Below are positions 15,349 through 29,550 of a stretch of 50,841 nt of DNA, piece by piece. Each line of letters opens with the position of its first letter. Position 1 is the stretch's first letter. The DNA comes from Clostridia bacterium. Its GTDB lineage: Bacteria; Bacillota; Clostridia; Oscillospirales; Acutalibacteraceae. Below the pieces are notes generated by a model that did not search any database, was not told the DNA's origin, and saw nothing but the letters and a program-made list of their open reading frames with translations. Position numbers and translations under genes: made by a program. Location: positions 1 to 50,841 of the forward strand of contig JAFQMC010000008.1 of NCBI GenBank assembly GCA_017421045.1. The letters are read 5' to 3'.

Positions 15349-15987
15349 TTACATAATCAAATCTGCAAGCTCCGTGAGATTATCAATAATCTCTGCATCT
15401 GTGACGGAAAATTCCTTTCGGCTCTGATGACCTTTTGTGTTGAGGATGCAATCGCAGGAAAGTTCTTTTGACATTTGCCAGTCTGCAACACAATCTCCAA
15501 TAACCACGCAACTTTCGGGGTATGTGGTGTTTTCTTCGAAGTATTTCTTCGCAAGGAAAACTTTGTCCCCTGCCTGATAGTCGCTTCGTCCGAGGACTGC
15601 ATCAAAATACTGAAGCAGTTGAATCTCACTGAGTCTTCGGGTTATCTTGTCAATGTTGGAGGCTGAGACGATAATCTGTCTTTTTCCCATTTTCTGAAAA
15701 CGAGAGAGCATCTCCTCAGCACCAATCATCACAGGATTCTTCTGAATGTGTTTTTCGTAGCCTGAGTCAAACTCTACTACGGCATCGCTGAAATCAAGGG
15801 TACCGGGAAGAAACACGGTTTCGTAGAACCTGCTTATGGGTGTGTCAACCGCCTCGTAATATCTATTGATGTCTATGGTTGGCTGATTCCTCTTTAAGAG
15901 CATATCGTTGACGGAGGCAAGTGCCGCCTGCACATCGTCAATGATTGTGCCGTTGAAGTCCCAGATTATTGTTGAGTATTCTTTCAT
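15349..15987 (-). CDS. HAD-family hydrolase (Gph-like) with DFN motif
   Basis: 212 residues. HAD motif I is IIWDFNGTIIDD: the nucleophile Asp10 is present, but the usual acid/base Asp two residues on is Asn12. Motif II is IIVSASN, motif III Lys falls around KVFLAKKYF, and motif IV is VVIGDCVADW. A cap domain (about 17-85) resembles phosphoglycolate phosphatases. DWNGT/DFNGT variants exist in clostridial HAD subfamilies, so it may still be active. AGGAG precedes the ATG. It is the last gene of the kinase-PqqD-ABC operon, 20 bases after the nucleotidyltransferase. The substrate is unknown; dephosphorylating something the upstream kinase makes is speculation. Confidence 0.82.
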   Translation of the reverse strand: MKEYSTIIWDFNGTIIDDVQAALASVNDMLLKRNQPTIDINRYYEAVDTPISRFYETVFLPGTLDFSDAVVEFDSGYEKHIQKNPVMIGAEEMLSRFQKMGKRQIIVSASNIDKITRRLSEIQLLQYFDAVLGRSDYQAGDKVFLAKKYFEENTTYPESCVVIGDCVADWQMSKELSCDCILNTKGHQSRKEFSVTDAEIIDNLTELADLIM

Positions 15988-16007
15988 CGTATCTCCTGTA
16001 GTAAATG

Positions 16008-17210
16008 TTACATTCTTAAATCAAGTCCCAGTACATCCATAGCTTTGCGTATATATTCTGCTTTGGCTGAGTCTGAGCTTTCCATATAATAATTAAGGTT
16101 AGCGGTTGTGATATTTCTGTCCTTGAATGCTCTTTTGAACCAGTAGGCAAAGACGTAGAAAGGATAGAGAAGTCTGTGATTTTTTGCAGACTCAAACCGT
16201 GAACAAATAAAGCTGTAGGGCGGAAATACTTTTCTGAACACATTACTCAGACCCGAGCGTTTTTTGCCTGTTCTCTTTTCCTCGCGGATTGCTGACTGCA
16301 AGAGAGAATTCTCAGCTGTGCCGAAAGTACAGCTACAGAGGATATAGTCTGCAGCCACCGAGTCTGTATCAGGGACACCGCCACCAAACCAACTCTTTGA
16401 AAGCTCCGAGATAATACCGCAGAACTTTGTAAGCCGAAGCTTTGTGAGCTCCTGAGATATGTACTCTGAATCAAGCTCTGTACTGTGGGCTTTCAAAAAT
16501 ACATACACATCCATTATAAGCCTGAGTCCTGCTCCCCCACCCTCCAGGTGCTTTGCAAGATGCTCCAGCATATAGATGTAGGTGTCGTTTATGCTGAGTG
16601 AACCTACACGGGTATCGGGAGGAGTGAGCACCTTGTCCCAGATATTCTCAAAGTATGCATGAGACGTTTTTGTGCTTGGAAGAAGCTTGCTATGAAGCTC
16701 GTAGTGATAAAAAGGCTCTTTGACAAAATCCAGCTGTCCTTCTATATCGTGCCTGAGAGTATATCCTGAGGATTTGAAAAGTTGGATTACTTCTTCTCTG
16801 TACTCCTGCCGATAAAGGATGTCTATGTCTGACATTGTACGCATCGAGGGTTCGGGATAGTCGTTTTTCAAAACAAAACCTTTGACAGGCACAACGTCAA
16901 CGCCGAGGCGGTCAAGCTCACCTAAAAGCCTATCGGTTTCCACCTGTAGATTTGCTTCATATATAATCTGCTCACGATATGCATTTCTGAATTCATTCAG
17001 CAGTTCAGTATCCGGCAGATATTCGGGAGCAAGCTTCATCAGGGCATAGTAAACCATACCTGTCACAGAATGATACTCTGCCAAAGAATAGACAGAAGCC
17101 CAGTCTGTATTCACAGCGGGCTTCTCGGGTTTTGTATCATTCAGTACACTGCTGAGAAGCTGTAACAGGTATGAAAAATTATCAGAATACTCAGTCTTTG
17201 CTCTTCTCAT
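16008..17210 (-). CDS. Nucleotidyltransferase-family protein (NTP_transf_5-like)
   Basis: 400 residues. An N-terminal helical region is followed by a minimal nucleotidyltransferase core: VDVVPVKGFVLKNDYP then SMRTMSDIDILYR, where D128 and D130 form the metal-binding DxD. The helical C-terminal half contains HLAKHLEGGG. This matches the uncharacterised nucleotidyltransferase family (PF14907 type) found as a tailoring gene in Firmicute lasso-peptide and related RiPP clusters. It overlaps the ABC exporter by 20 bases and has no strong ribosome site, so it is probably translationally coupled. The transferred group and target are unknown. Confidence 0.8.
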   Translation of the reverse strand: MRRAKTEYSDNFSYLLQLLSSVLNDTKPEKPAVNTDWASVYSLAEYHSVTGMVYYALMKLAPEYLPDTELLNEFRNAYREQIIYEANLQVETDRLLGELDRLGVDVVPVKGFVLKNDYPEPSMRTMSDIDILYRQEYREEVIQLFKSSGYTLRHDIEGQLDFVKEPFYHYELHSKLLPSTKTSHAYFENIWDKVLTPPDTRVGSLSINDTYIYMLEHLAKHLEGGGAGLRLIMDVYVFLKAHSTELDSEYISQELTKLRLTKFCGIISELSKSWFGGGVPDTDSVAADYILCSCTFGTAENSLLQSAIREEKRTGKKRSGLSNVFRKVFPPYSFICSRFESAKNHRLLYPFYVFAYWFKRAFKDRNITTANLNYYMESSDSAKAEYIRKAMDVLGLDLRM

Positions 17211-18939
17211 TGTTTTCTATCACAACTATCTTTCCGTCTATGATTCGTACTTCTTTATTGCACACAGCATTAGCCGCTTTTTTGTGAGAAATAAGGATAC
17301 AGGTTTTGTTGGAGAGGGTTTTGATATTCTGGAGGAGTTTCAGCTCGGTTGCTTCATCCAGTGCAGAGGTTGCCTCATCCAGCAAAACAACAGGTGCGCC
17401 TGACAGAATAGCTCTGGCGATTGCCACACGCTGTACCTGTCCTTCGGAAAGTCCCAGGCCCTTCTCACCTATTACGGTATCGAGGCCTTCAGGAAGCTCG
17501 TGGATAAAATCAGCGCAGGCAAAGTGCACTGCCTGCCAGATTTCTTCGTCAGTTGCATCGTCTTTGATAAAGGCGATGTTCTCTCTGAGTGTGCCTGAAA
17601 GCAGGAAGTTACCCTGAGGCACGTAGGAGAACAGACGGCGGATGTTACGGTCAACCAAAATCTTCGAGCCATCCTTGAGCTTCAGGTAAATTTCACCGCT
17701 CTCCAAGGGGAATACGCCAAGAAGCAGTTTTGTCAGGGTGCTTTTGCCGATGCCTGAAATACCGGTCATAACGATCAAATCACCCTTATTGACTGTAAGG
17801 TTTGTATTGTTGAAGATTACATCCCGGTCATATTTGAAGACGATATCCTTGAACTCGATTGTGTCGAGGTTTTCGTAGAGTACGTTGAAGTCGATGTTTG
17901 ATTCGTTGAGAACAGGTTCATCGTCCATATTCTCAAACTCGATGATACGCTCTGCAGAGGCGATTGCACCATAGTACGTAGGAATGATTGCAGTAAGAGA
18001 GCGGATGGGAACGCTAATCTGAGAAATGAGTGATAGCACCTGGGACAGAACACCGTAGGTCACAACGGGATCGTTGTTTGCGATTTTCACTGCGCAGTAG
18101 ATTAGTCCGAATATGTAAGCTGCATTGAAAGCAAGAGAAAACAAGCACTGGGTTGCGATAGAAATGAAATTTCTCTTCTTCTTGCGCTTGTAGTTGATTT
18201 CCTGCAAATCGGATGCAGACTCTACAACCTTGTCTTCTGCGTTGAAGATTTTGATGACAAGCAAGCTTGAAAGAGTCTCCTGCATAAAGGAACGAACCTT
18301 ACCGTCAGTCTCGAAAATCTGCTTGTGGTAGTTCTTCATTTTCTTTTTGAAGATGGTGGTAATTACAAATGCAAAGATTCCCACTGCAAGGAACAGCACG
18401 GTAAACAGGGGGTCTATTGTAAACAATACCACAAATATACCTATGAGCTTTGCGAAGGTATAGACCACACCGGGGATGAGGGCTGTGATTGCATTAGATA
18501 TAGTTGTGACGTCGTTATTGAGGCGGTTGAGCATCTCGCCTGTGTGGTATTTGGTTATCTGGGAATAGCTCTTTCTGAGAATTTTGTCGTAAAGAGAGGT
18601 CTTCATATCTATAGTCAGACGAGCGGTTATCCTGAACACAAGATGATTACTGAGAATTGTCATAGCAAACTGAGCAAGGACGACCAGAGCAAACATTACT
18701 CCCCAGAAAGTGATATTGCTCATACGGGTTGCAACTTCTGCACCGTACACACCAGTTGCAGAATTGACAACATTCTTGAGCATATATGAAACAACGATGC
18801 TGGCACCTGCAAGCAAAACATTCAGAAAAGTCAGCAGTGATATGGAAAACCACTGACCCTTTGCATTCTTTGCTATCCAGCGTATGGCCTCGCTATCTGT
18901 GAGACTTTTAAAAAATCCCTTTATAGAAAACTTTTTCAT
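17191..18939 (-). CDS. ABC exporter, fused permease-ATPase
   Basis: 582 residues in a half-transporter layout. Six membrane segments lie within about 30-325, then a nucleotide-binding domain from about 360. Walker A is GISGIGKST (393-401), the Q-loop region is VPQGNFLLSG, the signature LSEGQVQRVAIARA (497 on) and Walker B VVLLDEATSALDE. There is no N-terminal C39 peptidase domain, so if it exports a peptide, leader removal must be done by another protein. GGGGAGA precedes the ATG. Direct co-transcription with PqqD-like and kinase genes suggests export of a modified peptide or small molecule. A multidrug or lipid exporter remains possible. Confidence 0.9.
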   Translation of the reverse strand: MKKFSIKGFFKSLTDSEAIRWIAKNAKGQWFSISLLTFLNVLLAGASIVVSYMLKNVVNSATGVYGAEVATRMSNITFWGVMFALVVLAQFAMTILSNHLVFRITARLTIDMKTSLYDKILRKSYSQITKYHTGEMLNRLNNDVTTISNAITALIPGVVYTFAKLIGIFVVLFTIDPLFTVLFLAVGIFAFVITTIFKKKMKNYHKQIFETDGKVRSFMQETLSSLLVIKIFNAEDKVVESASDLQEINYKRKKKRNFISIATQCLFSLAFNAAYIFGLIYCAVKIANNDPVVTYGVLSQVLSLISQISVPIRSLTAIIPTYYGAIASAERIIEFENMDDEPVLNESNIDFNVLYENLDTIEFKDIVFKYDRDVIFNNTNLTVNKGDLIVMTGISGIGKSTLTKLLLGVFPLESGEIYLKLKDGSKILVDRNIRRLFSYVPQGNFLLSGTLRENIAFIKDDATDEEIWQAVHFACADFIHELPEGLDTVIGEKGLGLSEGQVQRVAIARAILSGAPVVLLDEATSALDEATELKLLQNIKTLSNKTCILISHKKAANAVCNKEVRIIDGKIVVIENNEKSKD

Positions 18940-18973
18940 TTAGGTCTCCCCTGAAACTTGATGAATTTCGTGC

Positions 18974-19015
18974 TAAAACAATATGCCGTACAGTAACACT
19001 GCACGGCTGATATTG
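18974..19015 (-). terminator. Intra-operon hairpin, possible partial terminator
   Basis: CAATATGCCGT and ACGGC..ATATTG arms, with inner CAGT/ACTG, give about 15 pairs with one mismatch and a 2-base bulge. Only TTTT follows on the minus strand. It lies between the pqqD-like and ABC genes. Confidence 0.55.
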
Positions 19016-19026
19016 AAAACTCGTAA

Positions 19027-19290
19027 TTATTCAAGAAGATCTGCGTTTTTAAGCTCGGTGATGAAGTTCTTAACATCGGCTCTGGCAACTGCCTCGTCAA
19101 CTTCATACTGCTGAAGCATGCTGTTAACTACTTCGTCCTCTGTAGTCTCGTTCTCTAAAAGCTGCCAGAGAAACGCACCTGCTTCGTTGAGGTTAATCAT
19201 ACCGTTGAAATCAGCAACAGCGGATCCTACGGGTACTACAACATAGCAATCGGCTACCTTTCTGAGCATAAAGTTTTCTTTGATTTTCAT
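19027..19290 (-). CDS. PqqD-family peptide-binding protein
   Basis: 87 residues from the ATG (MKIKENFML) lying 9 bases after AAAGG; an ATG three codons earlier abuts the ribosome site. The fold pattern is PqqD-like: an N-terminal beta strand set (LRKVADCYVVVPVG), then MINLNEAGAFLWQLLENETTEDEVVNSM, then a winged-helix C-terminus (VDEAVARADVKNFITELKNADLL). PqqD and lasso B1 proteins (RiPP recognition elements) bind leader peptides and present them to modifying enzymes. Here it sits between a kinase-like gene and an ABC exporter, with no radical-SAM, cyclase or peptidase gene in the window. Confidence 0.88.
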   Translation of the reverse strand: MKIKENFMLRKVADCYVVVPVGSAVADFNGMINLNEAGAFLWQLLENETTEDEVVNSMLQQYEVDEAVARADVKNFITELKNADLLE

Positions 19291-19303
19291 AATAAACATC
19301 CTT

Positions 19304-20008
19304 TCAGATTTGCTTTATAATATTCATGGCAGTAGTGACTGCATTGTCGCTGTCTGTGCATGATAATTTATAAACCGGATAGTGTGTAAGTATGTCGGAA
19401 TACATACTGAGAAGTTTATCTGCGATTTTCGGCGTAAGTCTGCCCGGGGTTTGCTCAAGCAAAAGAGAAATTGCCTCGGGAGTTGACAGTTTGCGAAGTG
19501 TATCGGTAGCGGCCTGCTCCAAAAACACAATGGCTCCGAGCTCCGCAGATTTATTCAGCTGTTTGCAGGTGCCTCCTGCAAAGGGTGTGCCGTATATGAT
19601 GCATTTGTCATCAATAAGCCGGAAGGAAGGCTTATCGTCATTTATGACTTCTGTCCTATCGGGGTACATCCTGCACCAACGAGTGGTAAGTGTGGATTTT
19701 CCTACACCCGATGAACCTGATATAAGATAAACCTTGTCGTCAAAAAGCAAGGCAGAACTGTGGATATAGCTGCCATCAAACTTCAGAAGGCGGCGGTTGA
19801 ACTTATCGGTAAAAACAGTATTTTCTGCTGTGCCGTGGGTAAAGCCTTCTCCCTCAGTAAGAAAATAGTCGATTTCTTCATCTGTTGCTGTAATGGATAT
19901 CTGAGGCTCGATATCCTCCTTGCAGAGATACGGCTCATACCAGGAAGCGGTATCTTCAAACCGTGGTGACATTTCTACAGGCACATCTGCAATTTTATAA
20001 AGCGGCAT
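19304..20008 (-). CDS. HPr kinase-like / SerK-type kinase
   Basis: 234 residues. The P-loop GSSGVGKSTL (98-107) and the following VINDDKPSFR (NDD at about 123-125) match the HPrK catalytic core (GxSGxGKS and the ADD motif). The N-terminal half is unlike the regulatory domain of true HPr kinase/phosphorylase, and the length is short. This is the architecture of the HPrK homologues in lasso-peptide clusters (paeninodin-type), which phosphorylate a peptide serine. AGGAGG precedes the ATG by 5-6 bases. It lies 16 bases after the LRR-dockerin gene and 13 bases before the PqqD-like gene. The substrate is unknown. Confidence 0.85.
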   Translation of the reverse strand: MPLYKIADVPVEMSPRFEDTASWYEPYLCKEDIEPQISITATDEEIDYFLTEGEGFTHGTAENTVFTDKFNRRLLKFDGSYIHSSALLFDDKVYLISGSSGVGKSTLTTRWCRMYPDRTEVINDDKPSFRLIDDKCIIYGTPFAGGTCKQLNKSAELGAIVFLEQAATDTLRKLSTPEAISLLLEQTPGRLTPKIADKLLSMYSDILTHYPVYKLSCTDSDNAVTTAMNIIKQI

Positions 20009-20024
20009 TATTGCCTCCTATTGA

Positions 20025-21248
20025 TTAAACAAGTACTTCTGTGCCGACAAAGAGGATATTCTCAAATCCTGCGCAATACTTCTGCACAAGAGTTGCATCC
20101 TTGACGGTGATCTCGCCTACAGCATCGCAGTTAGATAAAAGCTTCTGCACATGGTCGAGATACTCTAAATCTACAATAAACTTCTGGATAAGTGTTGCAT
20201 CCTTGACAGTAATTTTTCCGTCCAGATCGCTGTCACCTATGATATAGGGCTTCTTGTTAGAGGCTGTAGAAGACTCCACCGGATCGGTTATGGTTACAGT
20301 GGTGCTATGAGTGGCCGTTGTTGTTTCTGTGACCTCTGCGGTTGTAGCTACAGTTGACTCAGAAGGATCTGTAGAGATTGAAGTCTCTGTGGGATCTGTG
20401 GTTGTAGAAGGTTCTACGGGGTTTGTTGCAAGAGATGTAGCAGGTGCTGTTGAGGTAGTTTCAACAGTGGTATCTGCAGTTGTCTCGGTGGTAGTAACTG
20501 CTGTTGTAGTAACAGGAGCGATTGTAGTGGCGGGTTCTGTTGCAGTGGTAGGCTCCACATAGGCGCCGTAGGAATAGAATTTTATTCCTTTCTCTTCGGC
20601 ATATGTCTGAGCATATGTATTTTCCCAACCATATATTGTCAGATTATCGCACTTATTGAATGCGTTATCGGCGATACATGTGACAGATGCGGGGATTGTT
20701 GCGGAAGTGAGGTTTGTGCAACCAAGGAATGCCATGGACTCGATTCTTTCAACTCCCTGAGCAAGAATAACCGTGTTGAGCGAAGTACATCCGTTGAAGC
20801 AGTTTCTGGGAATCACATCTACACCGGTATTAGCGTCAAAAGAAACGAGGCTCAGGGTAGTGCATCCATAGAAAGCGTTATTTCCTATAGTTTCGATAGT
20901 ATTAGGAATGATGAGAGACTTAAGTGCAGTGCATCCATAGAAAGCATTGTTGCCTATTTCTTTGATTGTTGCAGGGAAAGCGATATAGTTGATATCTATA
21001 TTGTTAAGGAAAGCCTCGCTGTTCACCTTAGTGACAGGTTTTGACTGAAAAAGCGCCGGAATCTGAACTCTGGACGAATTACCAAGGTAACTCTCGATAT
21101 GATACTCGGAAGATATAACTCCGGACATCTCGTACTTCCAATCGCCGTCCTGAATATAGCTTGCCGCAAAGGTAGGAACAATTGTCGCAACAACTATCAG
21201 CAAAACAGAAACGACTGAAAGCAAGAGCTTGGAAAGATGTTTACTCAT
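20025..21248 (-). CDS. Secreted BspA-type leucine-rich-repeat protein with dockerin
   Basis: 407 residues. Signal peptide about 1-29 (LLLSVVSVLLIVVATIVPTF). About six BspA-type (LRR_5) repeats cover 60-205, with units such as IKEIGNNAFYGCTALKSLIIP. A Thr-rich linker spans about 232-330 and a dockerin 337-395. The first Ca loop is canonical (GDSDLDGKITVKDATLIQK). The second (CDAVGEITVKDATLVQK) has Val where Asp/Ser/Asn is expected at loop position 5, so it may bind calcium poorly. AGGAG precedes the ATG and a consensus promoter lies upstream. It is the first gene of the operon holding the kinase-like, PqqD-like and ABC genes, which is unusual for a scaffold-bound surface protein. Confidence 0.9.
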   Translation of the reverse strand: MSKHLSKLLLSVVSVLLIVVATIVPTFAASYIQDGDWKYEMSGVISSEYHIESYLGNSSRVQIPALFQSKPVTKVNSEAFLNNIDINYIAFPATIKEIGNNAFYGCTALKSLIIPNTIETIGNNAFYGCTTLSLVSFDANTGVDVIPRNCFNGCTSLNTVILAQGVERIESMAFLGCTNLTSATIPASVTCIADNAFNKCDNLTIYGWENTYAQTYAEEKGIKFYSYGAYVEPTTATEPATTIAPVTTTAVTTTETTADTTVETTSTAPATSLATNPVEPSTTTDPTETSISTDPSESTVATTAEVTETTTATHSTTVTITDPVESSTASNKKPYIIGDSDLDGKITVKDATLIQKFIVDLEYLDHVQKLLSNCDAVGEITVKDATLVQKYCAGFENILFVGTEVLV

Positions 21249-21291
21249 AGGCTCAACTCCTAAAAACAGTTATTTGTATATTAGTAAATAT

Positions 21292-21320
21292 ATTATATCA
21301 AAAACACATACAGAATGCAA
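21292..21320 (-). promoter_or_regulatory. Promoter of LRR-dockerin / kinase / PqqD / ABC operon
   Basis: On the minus strand: TTGCAT, 17-base spacer, TATAAT, 44 bases before the ATG. Confidence 0.78.
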
Positions 21321-21404: not shown

Positions 21405-21440
21405 TATAAAAAAGGGTGGATGCATAAATGCATCCACCCC
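21405..21440 (-). terminator. Strong terminator after the 53-aa peptide gene
   Basis: GGGTGGATGCAT and ATGCATCCACCC form a near-perfect 12-base inverted repeat, with CCTTTTTTATA on the minus strand. It ends the cotH - giant protein - peptide unit. Confidence 0.93.
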
Positions 21441-21479: not shown

Positions 21480-21641
21480 TTACGGATTAGGTGCAAAAGG
21501 ATTATCCTCATTGTCACCGTCGATAATATTATCAGAATTATCGACAATGGGGGTCTCTGTGCCGGGAACACTTGCTACGATAGCTGTTTTAAGTGAAAAC
21601 TTAACTACTTCCATTTCAGGAGCTTCATAAATATTTCTCAT
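21480..21641 (-). CDS. 53-aa peptide with YxxPxM leader-like motif
   Basis: ATG with AGGAGG 8 bases upstream, stop TAA, then a strong terminator. The sequence begins MRNIYEAPEMEVVKFSLK, continues TAIVASVPGTETPIVDN and ends in an acidic Asn/Asp-rich tail finishing NPFAPNP. There is no signal peptide or membrane segment. Y5, P8 and M10 resemble the YxxPxL element that lasso B1/PqqD-like proteins recognise in leader peptides; the downstream Gly and Thr of the lasso leader are absent. Short clostridial proteins opening YExPxxEVV are widespread and mostly unannotated (recollection). It lies 67 bases after the giant protein gene. It could be a RiPP-like precursor for the adjacent PqqD/kinase operon. 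That is an inference. Confidence 0.75.
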   Translation of the reverse strand: MRNIYEAPEMEVVKFSLKTAIVASVPGTETPIVDNSDNIIDGDNEDNPFAPNP

Positions 21642-21708
21642 GATAAATTCCTCCTATTCAATACAAATTATACTATACAACAAATACTTTTAAATGTCAA
21701 GTATCTGA

Positions 21709-24700
21709 TTAAGCAAATGTTGTATTGTCGTTTACTACTGCATCAGTTGTACCCTCTGTGTAGATGTTCAGAGTCTGAGCGTTGCTGATGTAGTAAGTGA
21801 AAGTATTGCTGCCGGGTGCCTTAACTGCAAGATATCCGTAAACATTGTAGAAGTTAGATCTGTTGTTCTCATTATTTGTGTAAGACAGAGTAATGAGCAG
21901 ACGGTTCTTGTTTGTGATATCAATGCTCTCTGCACCGTATGCGTAGTAGTAGTTGTTCTTGTTGTTGACATCGTCCCAACCCTTGGAAGTGCCGTCCTCA
22001 ACGAATCTCTGAGCGATCATCTCGATGATTGCGTCGCTGCTTGCTGTACCGTAGCCCTCAGCCTGTGCAGCCTTGAGAGCCTCCTCGTATGTTTCATAAG
22101 CACCGTCGCCAACCTTGAAGTAACCGACCTGCTCAAGAATGAGACCATAGTGGAACTCATATCCTGCAGCCTCGAGAGACTCGAGAGTTACATGGTTACC
22201 ATTCCAGTTCTCGGTAATAACCTCGCCATTGTAAATGGGTGTGAAGTTTGTACCGTCGTAGAAGTAAGGTGTAAGGATGTTTGTCAGATAGTCAACAAAG
22301 ATCTTATCGGTCTTGTTGTTACCGTTTGCATCTGTCTCCTGCTCACGTCCGTATACGGGATCGTCGATCATGATGTTGAAGTCAAGCTTGTCAACCTCAA
22401 TGTAGTTGATGCTCATATCCTTGGTTACACGATAACCATAGTAAGGACCGTAAGTCAGAATAATATCGATGCTCTTGTCGTAAGCTCCGTTGCCGTTCTC
22501 ATCGCTGTACCAGAAGCCATTTTCAGTTGCGTTTGCATCAAGATCACGTGCATCAAGGTTAAGAACAGTATTATAGGGAACCTGAGAAATATTAACATTC
22601 TCGCCAATCTGGGAAGTAACGGTGTACATTGTAACACGCTGTGTTGCCCAGAGAAGGAAGGTTGTTGTATCGTAGCTTGCACTGTCAATGATCCATGTTG
22701 CGTCCTTGTAGTAGTCCTCAACATAAGGAGCATAATAGAGCACTGTGTTCACCCACTCTTCTGTGGGAGAGCTGATATATGCAGGTGCATAAGGTGTGTT
22801 GTTGTTACCTGCGAAGCCTTCGATCTCCTGATCGGTGAGGACGTAAGGAACAACGTAGCTGACGATGTTGCCGTAACGATCGTTGTACTTGTAAACGAGC
22901 TTTCTGTTAACGGAAACGGGCATCAGATCGGAATACAGAGTCATGCTGAATACGTCGGATACAACATACCTAAACTTGAAGTATACCATATCGTTACGTC
23001 CAACAACTGTATTACCATTGTTGTAAAGGTTGTCGTCTGTGTCAACACCAACCTCTTCGTAGGTTGTAAGACCGTTCTTATCAACTGCATCGATGTACCA
23101 GGAATAGAATGTATCTGCGCCTGTTGCATCTGTTGCGATTGTGATGTAGAGTACGTCGCCCTCTGTAGCCTCCAGGTAAGCAGTCTCACCCTTGAGGAGA
23201 GTTGTGGTTGTGCCCTGAGTATCGTTTTCGATTCCTACATAGAGAACAGCGCTGCCGCCGTGAGCCTCGGGAATCTCAGCCTGAGGTGCTGTACCAACAC
23301 CTGTGTAGATGTAGTGGTTTACGTAGAAGTAACCCTCTGCAAGAGCCTCGAATACTGCTGTGTAAGTAGTACCGATAGCGGCTGTTACTGTGTAGGTTGT
23401 GTTTGTGCTGAAGAGTTCGCCGTTTGCAGAGAACCAACCAACGAACTTGTAACCAGCCTTAGGTGTAGCTGTCAGAGTAACAAGCTCACCACGGGCTACG
23501 TCAACGCTCTGGTAAGAAACATTGATATAACCTGAACCATAGTCTGCCTCATTGACAGGATCTGTATTGTCAATTGTGTAGTCCTGACCGCCGTTTTCTG
23601 TAAGAGCAACATTAACAGCAAGGTTGATTGTTACGGAAACGTCTGCGTCACCGTACCACTCACCGTCGTAACGACCGCCGTTTACATGCTCGTAAGAGAT
23701 GTATGCTCTCTGGTTCTCATAAGCATCGAGGATACCCCAGATTGCTGAATCCTCATCGTGGAGCTCATAAGAGTAGCACTTGCCGAGGTAATTACCTGTA
23801 GCATTATAGAGGTAGCAGTCAACGTACCACTGGCCGTCAAGGTTACCTACGCCGGAGTAGTTCTTGTCACCTGCCTGAACAATGTAGAGTGCATTGCTGT
23901 CGGACAGAGTGCTGTCGATATCCTCAATATCGTTGCCGAAGATATCTGTCTTCAGACCTGAATAGTCAGTGTACTGAACGAAGTCCCAGTTACCGCCGGA
24001 GATATTGATGGAGGTTGTAGAAGTTCTGTTTGAGTTGTAGGTATCGTTTGTATCCTTGAGAACGAAAGTGATGTTCTGCTTGCCGTCTCCAAGGAGAGAG
24101 ATGAACTCGTAGTAGTCATAAGTCTGGATATGACTGTAATCTACTTCGTGAGATACGTCGTATCCGTTGCCGTTTGCATCACCGTGGTTGTTGAATGTAA
24201 CACCGGAGATTGCAACGCCATCGGGAGATGTTGTCTCGATGTAGGTGTAGTAAACACCGTCAAGACCTGCAACAGGAATCATAACCTGACCTGTGTACTT
24301 ACCGAACTGCTCATACAGGGTTACACCGGAAGTCTTGTACCAAGTGTATGCTGACATATAGTCATCCCAGTTTGTGATGTCGTTGTTGTTAACTGCGTAA
24401 ACAGTAACTGTCTCAACGCCGTTAGCAGCGAGCCACTCGTTGGTGTGGAAGTAAACAGGAATAAGAGTGGAGCCATCCTCTGTGAATGCATAGGAACCGC
24501 TGTAGAGGCCGTTACCCATTGCAGTTGCAGGAACGAACTCGGTACCGTTTACTACCCAACCTGCTACGTAGTAGTCATAGCTGTCGCCTGTTTTGTTGAC
24601 CTGTGTGTAGAAGGTTACAGGATCACCTGCAACAACTTCTGCCTTGTCATAATAGGTGTGATAGCTTACTCTGTTGACTGTATCCTCATCAAAGTAAGTG

Positions 24701-27700
24701 TCACCTACACGACCGTTGGGTGAATTCATATCATCATCAGCTTCGTTGGTCATACGACCGTCAGAGCCGTTGACGGAGATTGTGGGAATATTCTCAGCCT
24801 TTGTCCAGCTAAATGCGCCTGTTGTGGGATTGAATGTGAAGGTTACGTCGTAAGCCTTCTGATAGTTTGTTGTATCGATCTCAACCTTTACAGTATTTCT
24901 GTTAGCAAAAGCAATGTAATCAGTGCTGGGACCTGAGAGGGTCTGAGGATTACTTGTATTGCCTGCTGTGGAGGCTGAATAGGTACGAGAATTCTCGTTA
25001 CAGGGGTTGACATAGATGTAACCGTCTGTTGTTGAATTTACGGTGAGTGTGTAGCTGTATGTACCATCGCCGTTGGACTCAAACTTGATCAGAGAGGTAC
25101 CGTCATACTCATTGCCGTTCCACTTACCCTGGAGGTAGAAACCGGGTTCAACGTAAGTTGTGGGATAGCCGGTAGTATCGGTCAAATTGGTGAACAGGTT
25201 ATCGGAAACTGTAAGATTATCATACTGAACACCTTCGTCACCGCCCTGGTTAAACTTAAGACCTGTGATATCCATGGGAACATCACGATACCAGAAACCA
25301 AGTGCGCTGTCATATGTCATTGCCTGACCGGGATAGCCGTCACCCTCGCTGCCACCGAAGTGATAAACATAGGGCTGTGCCCAGTTTGCTTCATTTCTCA
25401 GGTAAATTCTGCGATATACCTGAGTGAAGTTTGCAACTGCTGTGACATTACCTGTAGCAACGATGTTGAAGTTAGCATCTGTACGGGTTGAGCTGTCAGC
25501 TGCATAGTAGCTACCCTCGATTGTCCAGTTAACGAACTTGTAGCGGGAATCGGTAACTGTTGCAACCAGATTTACTGTTGTGTACTGGTCAACTGTTACG
25601 GAATTTGTACCATTGACTTTACCGGTACCGCCGGATGCGGGTTTACCGGTTGCTGTGACTGTAACCGACTCAATCTCTTCCCACTCAATATCGAGAGTAT
25701 GATCTGCTGCGATATTGGAGAATGTGTAAGTAAGTTCACGATGCTTTGTTTCGCTATCTGCAATCCAGTAGTAAACTGCGTAGCCGTCATCAGGCTCAGC
25801 GGTAATTGTAACATTATCGCCTGCAACTACTTCGATTACTGTACCTGTTGTAGGAATAGCCACACCGTTGTAGTAGAGAGTACCGGTTGCGGGATAGGAC
25901 TCAACAGTAATGTTGTAGGTTGTCTGCTTAGCATAAGAAACCTGAACAGTGGTATCAGCTGTTACATCAGCGATGGTGTATGTGTAGGTTGTCTTAGTCT
26001 CGTCTGTGTTAGTCAGAACGGGTGTGCCGTTTACTGTAACACTCTGGATGTAATAAAGCTCGGGAGCTGTTACGGAGAGAGCTGCGTCGGTGTTGTAATC
26101 AACAACAACGGGTGATGTAGAACCGTTGATGGTAACTGTACCATTACCGCCGTTCTCGGCTACTGTAACAGTGGGATCCTCTGCATAAACAATGTCAATG
26201 TTGCCGTTTGCATTAACGGTTGCATTGCCTGTGTAGGTATTTCCGTTCTCAGCGTTGATTAAACCACTGATAGACTTGATGTAATAGCCTGCAGGAGCTG
26301 TGATCATAACAGAAGCGCTCTTGCCCTGTACAACCTGAACATCCTGAGAAGCAGCATTAACGGAAGTACCGTCGATAGTAACTGTGCCGAGATTGTCAGC
26401 GCCGGTCTGAGTAACAGTTACTGTGTAGTAAGCCTGAAGCTCAAGATTATCCCAAGCTGTACGCAGATTTGCCTCTGCGGTGTCAATAGCTGACTGTGTG
26501 GAAGTTGCTGAGCCTGAAGCACTCTTTGCTGCTGTGTAAGCACTTGTGAATGCTGACCAGGAAGTTGCGGTGTAACCTGCGGAGTTTGTGCCGCCGTTGT
26601 AGTCAGCAGTTGCTGCTGTGATGAGGTCGAGAAGCTCACGGCGGAGAGTAACTGCACCGGTATCTGTGATCCAAACCTCGCTTACACCCTTCCATGAATC
26701 GCCTTCATAGAGGTAATCGGTAAGGATGATATCATCAGTCTTATGGGTTGTGTTGCTGCTTGCTGTGAGTGTGAAGCAGTCAGACTGACGGTCGCCGTGT
26801 CTGGTATTTGAAGAGCCAATTGTGTAGGTGTTGTAAGTAGTGCTGTATGCTACGTGAGATACATCTACCTGCCATACCTGGCCATAAGTGCTCTCGTTCA
26901 CTGACCAAACTGTGAAACCGTAGTTCTTGAGTGCTGTGAGGTTTGCACTGGGAATAGTCCACTTGTAGGTAGAACCTGAAACCAGTGTACCTGAGCCAAG
27001 CCATGTGTCGTTTTGGGGAACGTAGGAGCCTGCACCGGAGGTGTCGGTTGCGTTCATGTTTTTACCGGAGTTGGAAGAAGCGGTGATTGAGAGGTAATGA
27101 CCGCTGCCCCAGTTGGAACCTGCAGCACTGAAATCAACATAGATAACAGTGTCGGCAGATGTGCCACCGCCAAGAATTGCACCAACCTCGTAGGAATATC
27201 CGGGAGTAAGCTCGAGCTGTTCGGAAGTCTTCCAAGTGACACCATTGAAATCGGTGGTGTCATTCTGTAGTGTTCCGGGCCATGCGCCGTTCAAATCAAC
27301 AGCATTGCTTGTTGAAGTCTCCTTCTCCCAAGCATAGAGGTAATCATAACCCATGTCGGAGTAGGTATGAATTGTGAGGTACTGACCCTCTGCGAACTTA
27401 GCCTGAGCTGTGATGTTTGCTTTAGGTCTGATTACGAATGTTGATGAAGATGTAGTGCCTTCAACAATATCGTATGCACCAGTGATAGCCCAACCATTGA
27501 AGATATAATCTGCATTGGAGGGAGTTGCTGTGAGGGTTACTGTGTTGGGGTAAGTAACGCTTGAAGCAGAAGCCTCAGCGGTACCGCCGTCAGTATAGGT
27601 AACGCCTACAGTGTAGGTGTTTGCTACGTAAGTAGCGTTAACTGTAGTATTCGCTGTGATGTTTGCGAATGTCTTATCCCAACCGTTGAAGGTGTAGCCC

Positions 27701-29550
27701 TCACGGGTGGGGTCGGCAGGAGCTGTAGCACCCTCGCCGTACTCGACAGTCTGAGTTTTGAGCACTGTGCCGTCGTAGTCAACAAATTCTACAGTGTATG
27801 TGTTGATTGTGAAGTTAGCGGTTACTGTTAAATCTGCGCCATCCTTGAGGGGAGTGATTGTAACAGAAGTACCATTTGTGGACATAGTGTAGTCGGTGTT
27901 GAGAGTACCGCCTGTAACTGTCCAATTATTGAATGTGTAACCCGGATTTGCTGTTGCAGTAGAGGTTGCAGTTGCGGGATGGGTTACGGTATTTGCACCG
28001 GAGTTTGTAACTGTACCGCCATTGCCTGCAGCGAATCTTACTGTAGCAGTATTTGCACGGAAGTTAGCGGTTGCGGTGACGTCGCTATTAACGACGATAG
28101 AGAAAGACTGGTCATTCACTGAGCCACTCTGAGGAGTGTAGGTACCCTGAATGGTCCAACCTGTGAAGGTGTAACCGTCGTTGGGAATTGCAGTGAGGTT
28201 GATCATGCTTCCCTCGGGAACTTCCTGCTGGGTGGGAGAAACTGTACCTGCACCTGCGAGACCTACAACACCCCTAACGGTGTAGGTAGGAATCTGCTGG
28301 AAGCTTGCTACAGCTTCGGTATCCTCAGTGATGTTTGTAATGGTCAGGGGATTTGTAAGTCCCATATCGACACCATTTACTGTCCATCCTGTGAATACGT
28401 ATCTGTTAGCAGCATCTGCAGTAGCAGTGAAGGTTACTTCCCCACCGTGGTCAACCTTGGAAGCAGAAGCGGAAACTGTGCTGTTGCCTGAATCAGCGTT
28501 TTTGGAAACAGTGATGTCGTACTGATTAATCTCATATACAGCATTTACTGTGAGATCGCCTGTAACATTTGAGAAATCCTTATCCCAACGAACAAAGTGG
28601 TAACCCACTTTGTTGTCTTTGGGAGTGGGAGCAGTTGCTGAACCGCCATCCTGAACTGTTACTTCAGTCTCAGTACCGTCCCAATCAACGAAGGTAACGG
28701 TGTGCTCGGAAGGCTCTTTCTCAAAGCGAGCATAATATGTAGCCGCTGAGCCACTACAAACATAAGTGAGGGTTGTGGAACTTGTCTGAAGTGTTCCGCT
28801 TGAGTTATACCAACCCTTGAATGTGTAACCCGAGTTAGCAGTTGCCGTCATAGTTACAGTTGCAGTTCTTGCGGCAGATGCTGAAGTTGTACCAGTCGAA
28901 GAGGTAGAACCGGTATTACTGCTCATTTTGTAGGTGCTAATAGAAGTAGTACCTGCTGCGGAGTCGTTTGCATAGCTTGTACTACCCTTATCTGCAGACT
29001 GAACAGTTGCAGTCTGGGTAGTATTCAGACTAGAATAAGAGGAATGGTATGTTGTTGTAAGGGTAAAGTTATCAGTAGTGGATGTAGCACTTGAAGGGGA
29101 TGTAAGCAACTGAATACCATCGGTCATATTGCCTGAAAGAGCTTTAGCAGACGAGTTCTTATCTGCATATCCCAGACGATGAGAAACACTGTTGCCTTCT
29201 CCACCCCAAGTTGAGGAAGCATTAAAAACACCAATATGTGTAGCTCCTCCCCAAGTTGAGTTCATGTTGTAATACCAAAGGTCAGTGTTTGCTATCTTTG
29301 TCATCATATAACCCTGAGACCAAGAGCTGTGGCCAACCATAAGCTGAACACTGGACCATTTAGTCTTAGAGTTATCGTAGATGAATACGCATTTCAGGTC
29401 ATAGCCTGTTTCTGCGAGATCGACGTTTGCCTCAGTATCTGCAATGTCGAGCTGTGCTGCGGAAAGTCCGAGAGTTGTGGTGGACAGAAGCATCAGCAAT
29501 GTGAGAAGCAGAGTGAGGGAACGTCTCAGAATTGATTTAGTTTTGTTCAT
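21709..29550 (-). CDS. Giant secreted repeat protein (2,613 aa), InlB-B/FIVAR/CBM26-like
   Basis: AGGAGG precedes ATG by 8 bases. Signal peptide about 1-32. A module near 48-170 resembles carbohydrate-binding beta domains. InlB B-repeat / Listeria-Bacteroides-type repeats (GYTFKGWYNSSG, GYHFVRWDKDF, GYTFTGWTIQG, GYTFNGWDKTF, GYKFVGWFSANG) fall within about 235-720, 1290-1380 and 1985-2075. A FIVAR-like helical segment spans 968-1040. A CBM26-like starch-binding segment starts at about 1381 (NEANWAQPYVYHF, YPGQAMTY). The last third is Tyr/Asn/Asp-rich beta sequence. I see no dockerin, LPxTG, SLH or membrane anchor at the C-terminus. Likely an adhesin or surface-matrix protein binding glycans. 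It is 33 bases downstream of cotH, so one transcript is likely. Confidence 0.9.
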   Translation of the reverse strand: MNKTKSILRRSLTLLLTLLMLLSTTTLGLSAAQLDIADTEANVDLAETGYDLKCVFIYDNSKTKWSSVQLMVGHSSWSQGYMMTKIANTDLWYYNMNSTWGGATHIGVFNASSTWGGEGNSVSHRLGYADKNSSAKALSGNMTDGIQLLTSPSSATSTTDNFTLTTTYHSSYSSLNTTQTATVQSADKGSTSYANDSAAGTTSISTYKMSSNTGSTSSTGTTSASAARTATVTMTATANSGYTFKGWYNSSGTLQTSSTTLTYVCSGSAATYYARFEKEPSEHTVTFVDWDGTETEVTVQDGGSATAPTPKDNKVGYHFVRWDKDFSNVTGDLTVNAVYEINQYDITVSKNADSGNSTVSASASKVDHGGEVTFTATADAANRYVFTGWTVNGVDMGLTNPLTITNITEDTEAVASFQQIPTYTVRGVVGLAGAGTVSPTQQEVPEGSMINLTAIPNDGYTFTGWTIQGTYTPQSGSVNDQSFSIVVNSDVTATANFRANTATVRFAAGNGGTVTNSGANTVTHPATATSTATANPGYTFNNWTVTGGTLNTDYTMSTNGTSVTITPLKDGADLTVTANFTINTYTVEFVDYDGTVLKTQTVEYGEGATAPADPTREGYTFNGWDKTFANITANTTVNATYVANTYTVGVTYTDGGTAEASASSVTYPNTVTLTATPSNADYIFNGWAITGAYDIVEGTTSSSTFVIRPKANITAQAKFAEGQYLTIHTYSDMGYDYLYAWEKETSTSNAVDLNGAWPGTLQNDTTDFNGVTWKTSEQLELTPGYSYEVGAILGGGTSADTVIYVDFSAAGSNWGSGHYLSITASSNSGKNMNATDTSGAGSYVPQNDTWLGSGTLVSGSTYKWTIPSANLTALKNYGFTVWSVNESTYGQVWQVDVSHVAYSTTYNTYTIGSSNTRHGDRQSDCFTLTASSNTTHKTDDIILTDYLYEGDSWKGVSEVWITDTGAVTLRRELLDLITAATADYNGGTNSAGYTATSWSAFTSAYTAAKSASGSATSTQSAIDTAEANLRTAWDNLELQAYYTVTVTQTGADNLGTVTIDGTSVNAASQDVQVVQGKSASVMITAPAGYYIKSISGLINAENGNTYTGNATVNANGNIDIVYAEDPTVTVAENGGNGTVTINGSTSPVVVDYNTDAALSVTAPELYYIQSVTVNGTPVLTNTDETKTTYTYTIADVTADTTVQVSYAKQTTYNITVESYPATGTLYYNGVAIPTTGTVIEVVAGDNVTITAEPDDGYAVYYWIADSETKHRELTYTFSNIAADHTLDIEWEEIESVTVTATGKPASGGTGKVNGTNSVTVDQYTTVNLVATVTDSRYKFVNWTIEGSYYAADSSTRTDANFNIVATGNVTAVANFTQVYRRIYLRNEANWAQPYVYHFGGSEGDGYPGQAMTYDSALGFWYRDVPMDITGLKFNQGGDEGVQYDNLTVSDNLFTNLTDTTGYPTTYVEPGFYLQGKWNGNEYDGTSLIKFESNGDGTYSYTLTVNSTTDGYIYVNPCNENSRTYSASTAGNTSNPQTLSGPSTDYIAFANRNTVKVEIDTTNYQKAYDVTFTFNPTTGAFSWTKAENIPTISVNGSDGRMTNEADDDMNSPNGRVGDTYFDEDTVNRVSYHTYYDKAEVVAGDPVTFYTQVNKTGDSYDYYVAGWVVNGTEFVPATAMGNGLYSGSYAFTEDGSTLIPVYFHTNEWLAANGVETVTVYAVNNNDITNWDDYMSAYTWYKTSGVTLYEQFGKYTGQVMIPVAGLDGVYYTYIETTSPDGVAISGVTFNNHGDANGNGYDVSHEVDYSHIQTYDYYEFISLLGDGKQNITFVLKDTNDTYNSNRTSTTSINISGGNWDFVQYTDYSGLKTDIFGNDIEDIDSTLSDSNALYIVQAGDKNYSGVGNLDGQWYVDCYLYNATGNYLGKCYSYELHDEDSAIWGILDAYENQRAYISYEHVNGGRYDGEWYGDADVSVTINLAVNVALTENGGQDYTIDNTDPVNEADYGSGYINVSYQSVDVARGELVTLTATPKAGYKFVGWFSANGELFSTNTTYTVTAAIGTTYTAVFEALAEGYFYVNHYIYTGVGTAPQAEIPEAHGGSAVLYVGIENDTQGTTTTLLKGETAYLEATEGDVLYITIATDATGADTFYSWYIDAVDKNGLTTYEEVGVDTDDNLYNNGNTVVGRNDMVYFKFRYVVSDVFSMTLYSDLMPVSVNRKLVYKYNDRYGNIVSYVVPYVLTDQEIEGFAGNNNTPYAPAYISSPTEEWVNTVLYYAPYVEDYYKDATWIIDSASYDTTTFLLWATQRVTMYTVTSQIGENVNISQVPYNTVLNLDARDLDANATENGFWYSDENGNGAYDKSIDIILTYGPYYGYRVTKDMSINYIEVDKLDFNIMIDDPVYGREQETDANGNNKTDKIFVDYLTNILTPYFYDGTNFTPIYNGEVITENWNGNHVTLESLEAAGYEFHYGLILEQVGYFKVGDGAYETYEEALKAAQAEGYGTASSDAIIEMIAQRFVEDGTSKGWDDVNNKNNYYYAYGAESIDITNKNRLLITLSYTNNENNRSNFYNVYGYLAVKAPGSNTFTYYISNAQTLNIYTEGTTDAVVNDNTTFA

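Follow-up and report, generated by a model that had tools for sequence, protein, structure and literature searches.

The window analysed here, a stretch of 50,841 nucleotides (contig JAFQMC010000008.1 of the Clostridia bacterium assembly GCA_017421045.1), carries a minus-strand operon that joins a putative 53-residue precursor peptide to an HPrK-like kinase, a PqqD-like recognition element, an ABC exporter and a nucleotidyltransferase. We propose, at a probability of roughly 0.7, that this operon encodes a pathway for a linear phosphorylated RiPP (ribosomally synthesized and post-translationally modified peptide) working like the pathway for Linear Polyphosphorylated Peptides (LPPs). The LPP pathway was published in May 2026 from the lpp cluster of Paenibacillus alginolyticus (PMC13381572). 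As the main text of that paper describes it, the cluster consists of a precursor, the HprK-like kinase LppK, the RiPP recognition element (RRE) LppB, the signal peptidase I-like (SpI-like) peptidase LppS, the exporter LppD and the NTP transferase LppN; LppK repeatedly phosphorylates Ser3 of the core, LppS together with LppB cuts off the leader, and no cyclase takes part. A preliminary description of the window had suspected a possibly undescribed system, and this part of its proposal falls away, since the same gene set is already known in kind from the LPP pathway.

The gene set and its precursor peptides

The six genes of the preliminary description are all present as minus-strand open reading frames (ORFs). 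Five of them match HAD_2, NTP_transf_5, ABC_membrane/ABC_tran, PqqD and LRR_5, and the kinase gives only weak P-loop matches. The set was said to open with a secreted dockerin protein. A leucine-rich repeat (LRR) protein with dockerin-like repeats does lead the six, but a seventh gene upstream of it, of 53 codons, had been overlooked, and the dockerin match of the window protein (0.038) is below the Pfam cut-off. The counterparts in Ruminococcus bromii ATCC 27255 (1.8e-9) and in a genome of the same genus as the window's (2.2e-5) both pass it. The spacing had been given as gaps of 11 to 16 bases or overlaps apart from an 87-base gap with a hairpin; the 87-base gap, its hairpin and an overlap stand, while the stated range does not, as the intervals downstream of the LRR-dockerin gene are 16, 13 (with the ATG at 19290), 87, a 20-base overlap and 20. 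Two contigs of metagenome-assembled genomes, from a Ruminococcus sp. of roe deer (locus L092) and a Clostridia bacterium of goat colon (L093), share the window's gene order, from precursor through LRR, kinase, PqqD, ABC and nucleotidyltransferase to HAD, which argues that the operon is more than a chance arrangement. Identity to the window is 52% (L092) and 50% (L093) for the kinase, 38% for the nucleotidyltransferase (L092), 53% for the HAD hydrolase (L093) and 39% for the LRR protein over its length (L093).

The 53-codon gene is likely to encode the substrate of the pathway. A strong ribosome site and a promoter-like site of its own precede it, a terminator follows it, and its product carries the leader motif YEAP, which is of the YxxP type bound by PqqD-like recognition elements. 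A profile built from 13 such peptides was searched at E 0.01 against 150 genomes of the window's family, and it found precursors in 32 genomes, every one of which belongs to the 72 that hold a relative of the window kinase. When the 10 seed genomes are left aside, 22 of 22 precursor-positive genomes are kinase-positive (p = 1.3e-9). Placed in register, 83 precursors (four near-identical pairs among them; one further profile match that could not be placed was dropped) have Tyr in 82, Pro at +3 in 80, Phe at +10 in 68, Asp or Glu at +14 in 69, Thr at +17 in 41 and Ser at +19 in 59. The Px6F spacing occurs in 66 and is often followed by [DE]-V-I-T-x-S. A Ser lies at register 18 to 20 in 72 of the 83, against a Ser content of 5.1% among later residues, and in the window precursor this residue is Ser24, 19 positions after the Tyr. 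Some genomes hold several precursors for a single kinase match (seven against one in genome G087), and many precursor genes lie apart from any kinase locus. At another locus of the window's genome (L203, G000:C30), two precursor-like peptides (370-489 and 1509-1661) flank a radical SAM gene (532-1425; PF04055, 2.3e-21), which perhaps marks another modifying branch.

The preliminary description had also placed a single consensus promoter ahead of the LRR-dockerin gene. The -10 of this site is perfect, but its -35, TTGCAT, agrees at only 3 of 6 positions, and the site is absent from the promoter-site listing of the region. The better promoter-like site, TTGACA-17-TATAGT, lies ahead of the overlooked precursor gene; across the region, sites resembling promoters are not enriched over shuffled sequence (13 against 14.4, sd 3.6). 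Five relatives were folded: hairpins of differing sequence follow the precursor gene in L092, L093, L070 and L108, whereas L126 folds only weakly at that place. The precursor and LRR-dockerin genes are separated by a terminator in the window and by a hairpin in four of the five relatives, which makes separate transcription of the LRR-dockerin gene plausible; the preliminary description had named this outcome as counting against its proposal. Hairpins of differing sequence also occupy the PqqD-ABC gap in L092 and L093.

Features of the operon region, with positions in the window
Feature	Position	Strand	Evidence
2613-aa secreted repeat protein	21709..29550	-	ORF and translation; 67-base gap to precursor gene
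Promoter-like TTGACA-17-TATAGT, upstream of precursor gene	21672..21700	-	11/12 consensus positions
Putative 53-aa precursor peptide, 53-codon gene	21480..21641	-	YxxP leader, Phe 10 after Tyr, Ser24 in common Ser register
Terminator-like hairpin and T run, 3' of precursor gene	21413..21440	-	Fold
Site claimed as promoter	21292..21320	-	-35 TTGCAT (3/6), -10 TATAAT (6/6)
Secreted BspA-type LRR protein, C-terminal dockerin-like repeats	20025..21248	-	LRR_5 (1.8e-33)
HPrK-like kinase (LppK-like)	19304..20008	-	H83, K104, D124, D125
PqqD-like RRE (LppB-like)	19027..19290	-	PqqD 1.1e-20; N35, D72
Hairpin in PqqD-ABC intergenic gap	18985..19007	-	Fold
MsbA-like ABC exporter (LppD-like)	17191..18939	-	ABC_membrane/ABC_tran
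NTP_transf_5 (PF14907) enzyme (LppN-like)	16008..17210	-	4e-51
HAD-superfamily hydrolase, final gene of set	15349..15987	-	HAD_2 1e-16

Co-occurrence of the maturation genes

The preliminary description had called for a neighbourhood search for joint occurrence of the kinase, PqqD, ABC and nucleotidyltransferase genes, and the combination is recurrent. From a scan across named genome contigs the best 80 of 588 confirmed loci were kept, and the distinct kinase loci number 115 with the window's included. A PqqD gene is nearby in 56 of them, and these 56 also hold SpI-like (41), ABC (30), nucleotidyltransferase (23), precursor (17, within 2.5 kb) and HAD (3) genes. The same-genus genome has a locus with the large protein, precursor, LRR-dockerin, PqqD and kinase, where the ABC, nucleotidyltransferase and HAD genes are missing; R. 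bromii ATCC 27255 carries the precursor, LRR-dockerin, kinase, PqqD and SpI-like genes. On contigs labelled Planctomycetes, three loci (L139, L152 and L168; GC 54%, 40% and 56%) combine a kinase gene with PqqD and SpI-like genes; their surroundings yielded no precursor, and binning errors are possible. The window's genome (G000; 1.34 Mb, 38 contigs, 68% complete) has a second HPrK-like gene (L032, G000:C4, 10506-11207) that adjoins housekeeping genes with no PqqD gene nearby; lone kinase genes of this sort are frequent among relatives (59 of the 115 loci).

Key residues agree with those of the known systems. H83, K104, D124 and D125 of the kinase are invariant in 31 aligned relatives, and N35 and D72 of the RRE align with N33 and D70 of LppB (9x8z), with a spacing of 37 in both. 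MsbA is the top NCBIfam model for the ABC protein, below its cut-off, and Pfam and NCBIfam scans found no N-terminal peptidase domain on it. A candidate for the leader peptidase, which the preliminary description had missed, came from the relatives, many of which have, adjoining the kinase, a small Ser-His protein whose GxSM and GDN boxes resemble those of signal peptidases; its Ser, His and Asp are invariant in 12 aligned relatives. The window's genome encodes this SpI-like protein on contig C35 (G000:C35:4617-5021, E 8.7e-42 with profile A4), between a gene for a dockerin alpha-amylase on one side and one for an LRR protein on the other. It matches the archaeal-type signal peptidase I model (TIGR02228, sigpep_I_arch) at 1.1e-7, which is below the cut-off, and a PDB profile search with it returned nothing useful. 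The SpI-like profile matches 66 of the 150 family genomes (E 1e-10), against 9 of 398 genomes across the phylum (E 1e-12), and 64 of the 66 are also kinase-positive (52 of 54 without seed genomes). At locus L052 (9297-10439), kinase and SpI-like peptidase are fused in one ORF of 380 amino acids.

Pairing with secreted-protein genes

Precursor genes pair with genes for secreted proteins. In 39 of 53 cases the precursor gene lies at most 250 bases behind a same-strand gene for a secreted protein of at least 300 amino acids, compared with 60 of 1505 control genes. The 53 are the precursors with a complete upstream gene in the fetched stretch (30 of the 83 were dropped because the upstream gene was missing or at the stretch end), the 39 pairs represent fewer distinct upstream genes, as tandem precursors share one, and "secreted" was assigned by a simple hydropathy rule. 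The exceptions include a UvrC-like gene and other housekeeping genes upstream. Because precursor genes keep this company, the cell surface or the medium is pointed to as the place where the product would act.

The upstream proteins themselves show partial resemblances at their C-terminal ends. The last 110 residues of the window's 2613-aa protein match the upstream proteins of L092 (1.8e-14), L093 (5.4e-14) and L108 (7.4e-9). A C-terminal profile made from 11 upstream proteins matched 26 ORFs, 21 of them distinct, all at most 28 residues from the C-terminus, and 17 with a downstream precursor; neither the 2613-aa protein of the window nor the upstream proteins of L092, L093, L108 and L126 were matched. 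We regard a common C-terminal domain as a lead only, as a precursor lies downstream of just 6 of the 10 non-seed matches. Six loci (L225, L226, L227, L230, L231 and L169) form a second upstream secreted group, with an end pattern, seen by eye, like YxYGAAAKxYFG. In L210 (8186-8302 and 8341-9402) the precursor and the secreted protein upstream of it end in almost identical residues (GWSDWWTPE), and in L208 (4330-5112) the same holds for the precursor and an upstream secreted or membrane protein (IELPII).

Relation to known pathways and alternative explanations

The likeness to the LPP pathway, as far as the main text of PMC13381572 describes it, extends over most of the parts. Both systems have a kinase, a discrete RRE whose Asn and Asp hold YxxP leaders, an archaeal-type SpI-like peptidase, an NTP transferase and an MsbA-like exporter; the published pathway uses no cyclase, and the Pfam scan of the window operon found none. 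The His-Lys-Asp-Asp set reported as essential in lasso kinases is present in the window kinase, and the Ser is about equally far from the Tyr (18 to the phospho-Ser of LppA, 19 in the window). The differences are that the leader of the window clade has Px6F and none of the 83 precursors has the published Px9Fx[T/A], that the SpI-like gene stands in trans in this clade while the published core includes it in the cluster, that LRR-dockerin and HAD genes are extra, and that genomes here hold several precursors, mostly behind secreted-protein genes. As one defining precursor motif was searched for in all 83 and found in none, the window operon appears LPP-like but distinct from a plain LPP member. 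The clusters known so far from print are part of capsule loci in Bacilli, and LPPs are called restricted to Bacillota; the main text contains no word beginning with clostridi, lachnospir or oscillospir, nor the word dockerin (PMC13381572). Full-text literature, with few subscription journals in it, yielded neither the secreted-gene pairing nor clostridial LPPs, and the 199 SpI proteins of PMC13381572 may include clostridial ones.

From the Paenibacillus system we infer phosphorylation, cleavage and export in the following way. The precursor would be held through its YxxP leader by the PqqD-like protein while the kinase adds one or more phosphates to a Ser just past the leader, most likely Ser24. 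Further modification of the phosphate would fall to the NTP_transf_5 enzyme, in which the HAD hydrolase may assist it; the SpI-like protein encoded on contig C35 would remove the leader, and the ABC protein would export the acidic linear core, whose probable place of action is next to the secreted protein encoded upstream. LppN was silent in B. subtilis, where a partner is believed to be missing (PMC13381572), and the HAD hydrolase beside the nucleotidyltransferase is, speculatively, a candidate for that partner.

Several observations weigh against an LPP-like pathway. No PqqD gene is nearby at 59 of the 115 kinase loci, so relatives of the window kinase may have other jobs, and a PDB profile search with the kinase matched no HPrK structure. 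The Ser is shifted in both operon orthologues (register 20 in L092, as in R. bromii, and 21 in L093; it is 18 in the same-genus genome), the L092 precursor has a weak profile score, and the missing Px9Fx[T/A] motif counts here too. The SpI-like gene lies outside the operon, and the L092 and L093 genomes likewise carry it without linkage. The same-genus genome (G074), which is 100% complete and has precursor, kinases and PqqD, gave no SpI match even at E 0.1.

The same accessory genes (kinase, PqqD, ABC exporter, nucleotidyltransferase) accompany paeninodin-type lasso peptides, including pseudomycoidin, in which, as far as the accessible text of the two papers goes, a Ser is polyphosphorylated and then receives a hexose through PsmN (PMC9266682, PMC7533575). 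The operon could thus belong to a lasso pathway whose cyclase and peptidase are encoded elsewhere in the genome. YxxP leaders and PqqD proteins are common to lasso systems, the best NCBIfam matches of the window PqqD are lasso models (below cut-off), and the incomplete window genome has five Asn_synthase (PF00733) matches that are not distinguished from AsnB, two of them strong. Lasso systems require the cyclase and the B2 peptidase, and the preliminary description had rightly noted no asparagine-synthetase-like cyclase in the operon (Pfam scan). The B2 peptidase PF13471 goes unmatched both in the window's genome and throughout the 32 precursor-positive family genomes, two of which, G088 (99% complete) and G122 (77%), lack Asn_synthase matches too. 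Because LasB-transporter fusions are reported in a paper on rumen lasso peptides, as far as its accessible text goes, the PF13471-matching frames were checked for ABC signatures with a signature pattern: the matches, in 19 of the 150 genomes with 1 over cut-off, lie in frames of 262-861 aa with no such signature. The leader residue is moreover Trp in the paeninodin type and Tyr here, and the phosphate is on the C-terminal Ser there and would be near the leader here. We consider a dispersed lasso pathway very improbable indeed, mainly on the PF13471 and PF00733 results, and the kinase, carrier and exporter without macrocycle of the preliminary description were largely the right picture, being the same set as in the LPP pathway. 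An HprK-like and PqqD-like pair is also found in the SynChlorMet and HPr-rel-A cassettes (TIGR04249, TIGR04248, TIGR04352, TIGR04353); matches to these models are weak (2.9e-4, 1.2e-4) and all far below the cut-offs. SynChlorMet includes radical SAM enzymes, which are absent from the window operon.

Two further explanations concern the secreted proteins. Instead of substrates, the short peptides might be small partners that chaperone or regulate the secreted protein encoded upstream, with the kinase operon an incidental neighbour; the 39 of 53 pairings and the many precursors away from kinase loci fit this. The tight genome co-occurrence of precursors with kinase and SpI-like genes, the RRE-type YxxP motif in nearly all of them and the presence of a precursor at 17 of the 56 kinase-PqqD loci make it unlikely. 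The LRR-dockerin protein might alternatively be the carrier or target, the modified peptide being fixed to it and displayed on a dockerin-based surface complex. In the window, R. bromii, the same-genus genome and L093, its gene does stand between those for the precursor and the kinase (by Pfam or alignment; among relatives, R. bromii and the same-genus genome alone have both LRR and dockerin confirmed by Pfam), yet most kinase-PqqD loci lack such a gene (a loose LRR label falls close to the kinase at 7 of 56), the analysis recognised no enzyme for attachment, and a terminator separates precursor and LRR gene. We hold this to be quite improbable. A surface role in general finds some indirect support in the kept position of the LRR-dockerin gene and in the broad pairing with secreted-protein genes.

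A wider role for the LPP-like pathway proposed here is tentative and rather doubtful: in gut and rumen clostridia it may be a general partner system for secreted proteins, in which one maturation set serves several scattered precursors and the large secreted protein encoded upstream would leave the cell together with a phosphorylated acidic peptide, made alongside it and perhaps bound or joined to it. If so, in dockerin-bearing degraders of starch and fibre this phosphopeptide would serve in surface assembly or calcium binding. No role was known for LPPs at their description in 2026, and the concentration of such a branch in a single family of gut clostridia, together with the pairing of its precursors with secreted proteins, gives the first strong genomic hint as to where an LPP-type product acts. 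As R. bromii ATCC 27255 carries the genes, a cultured bacterium is at hand for testing the question.

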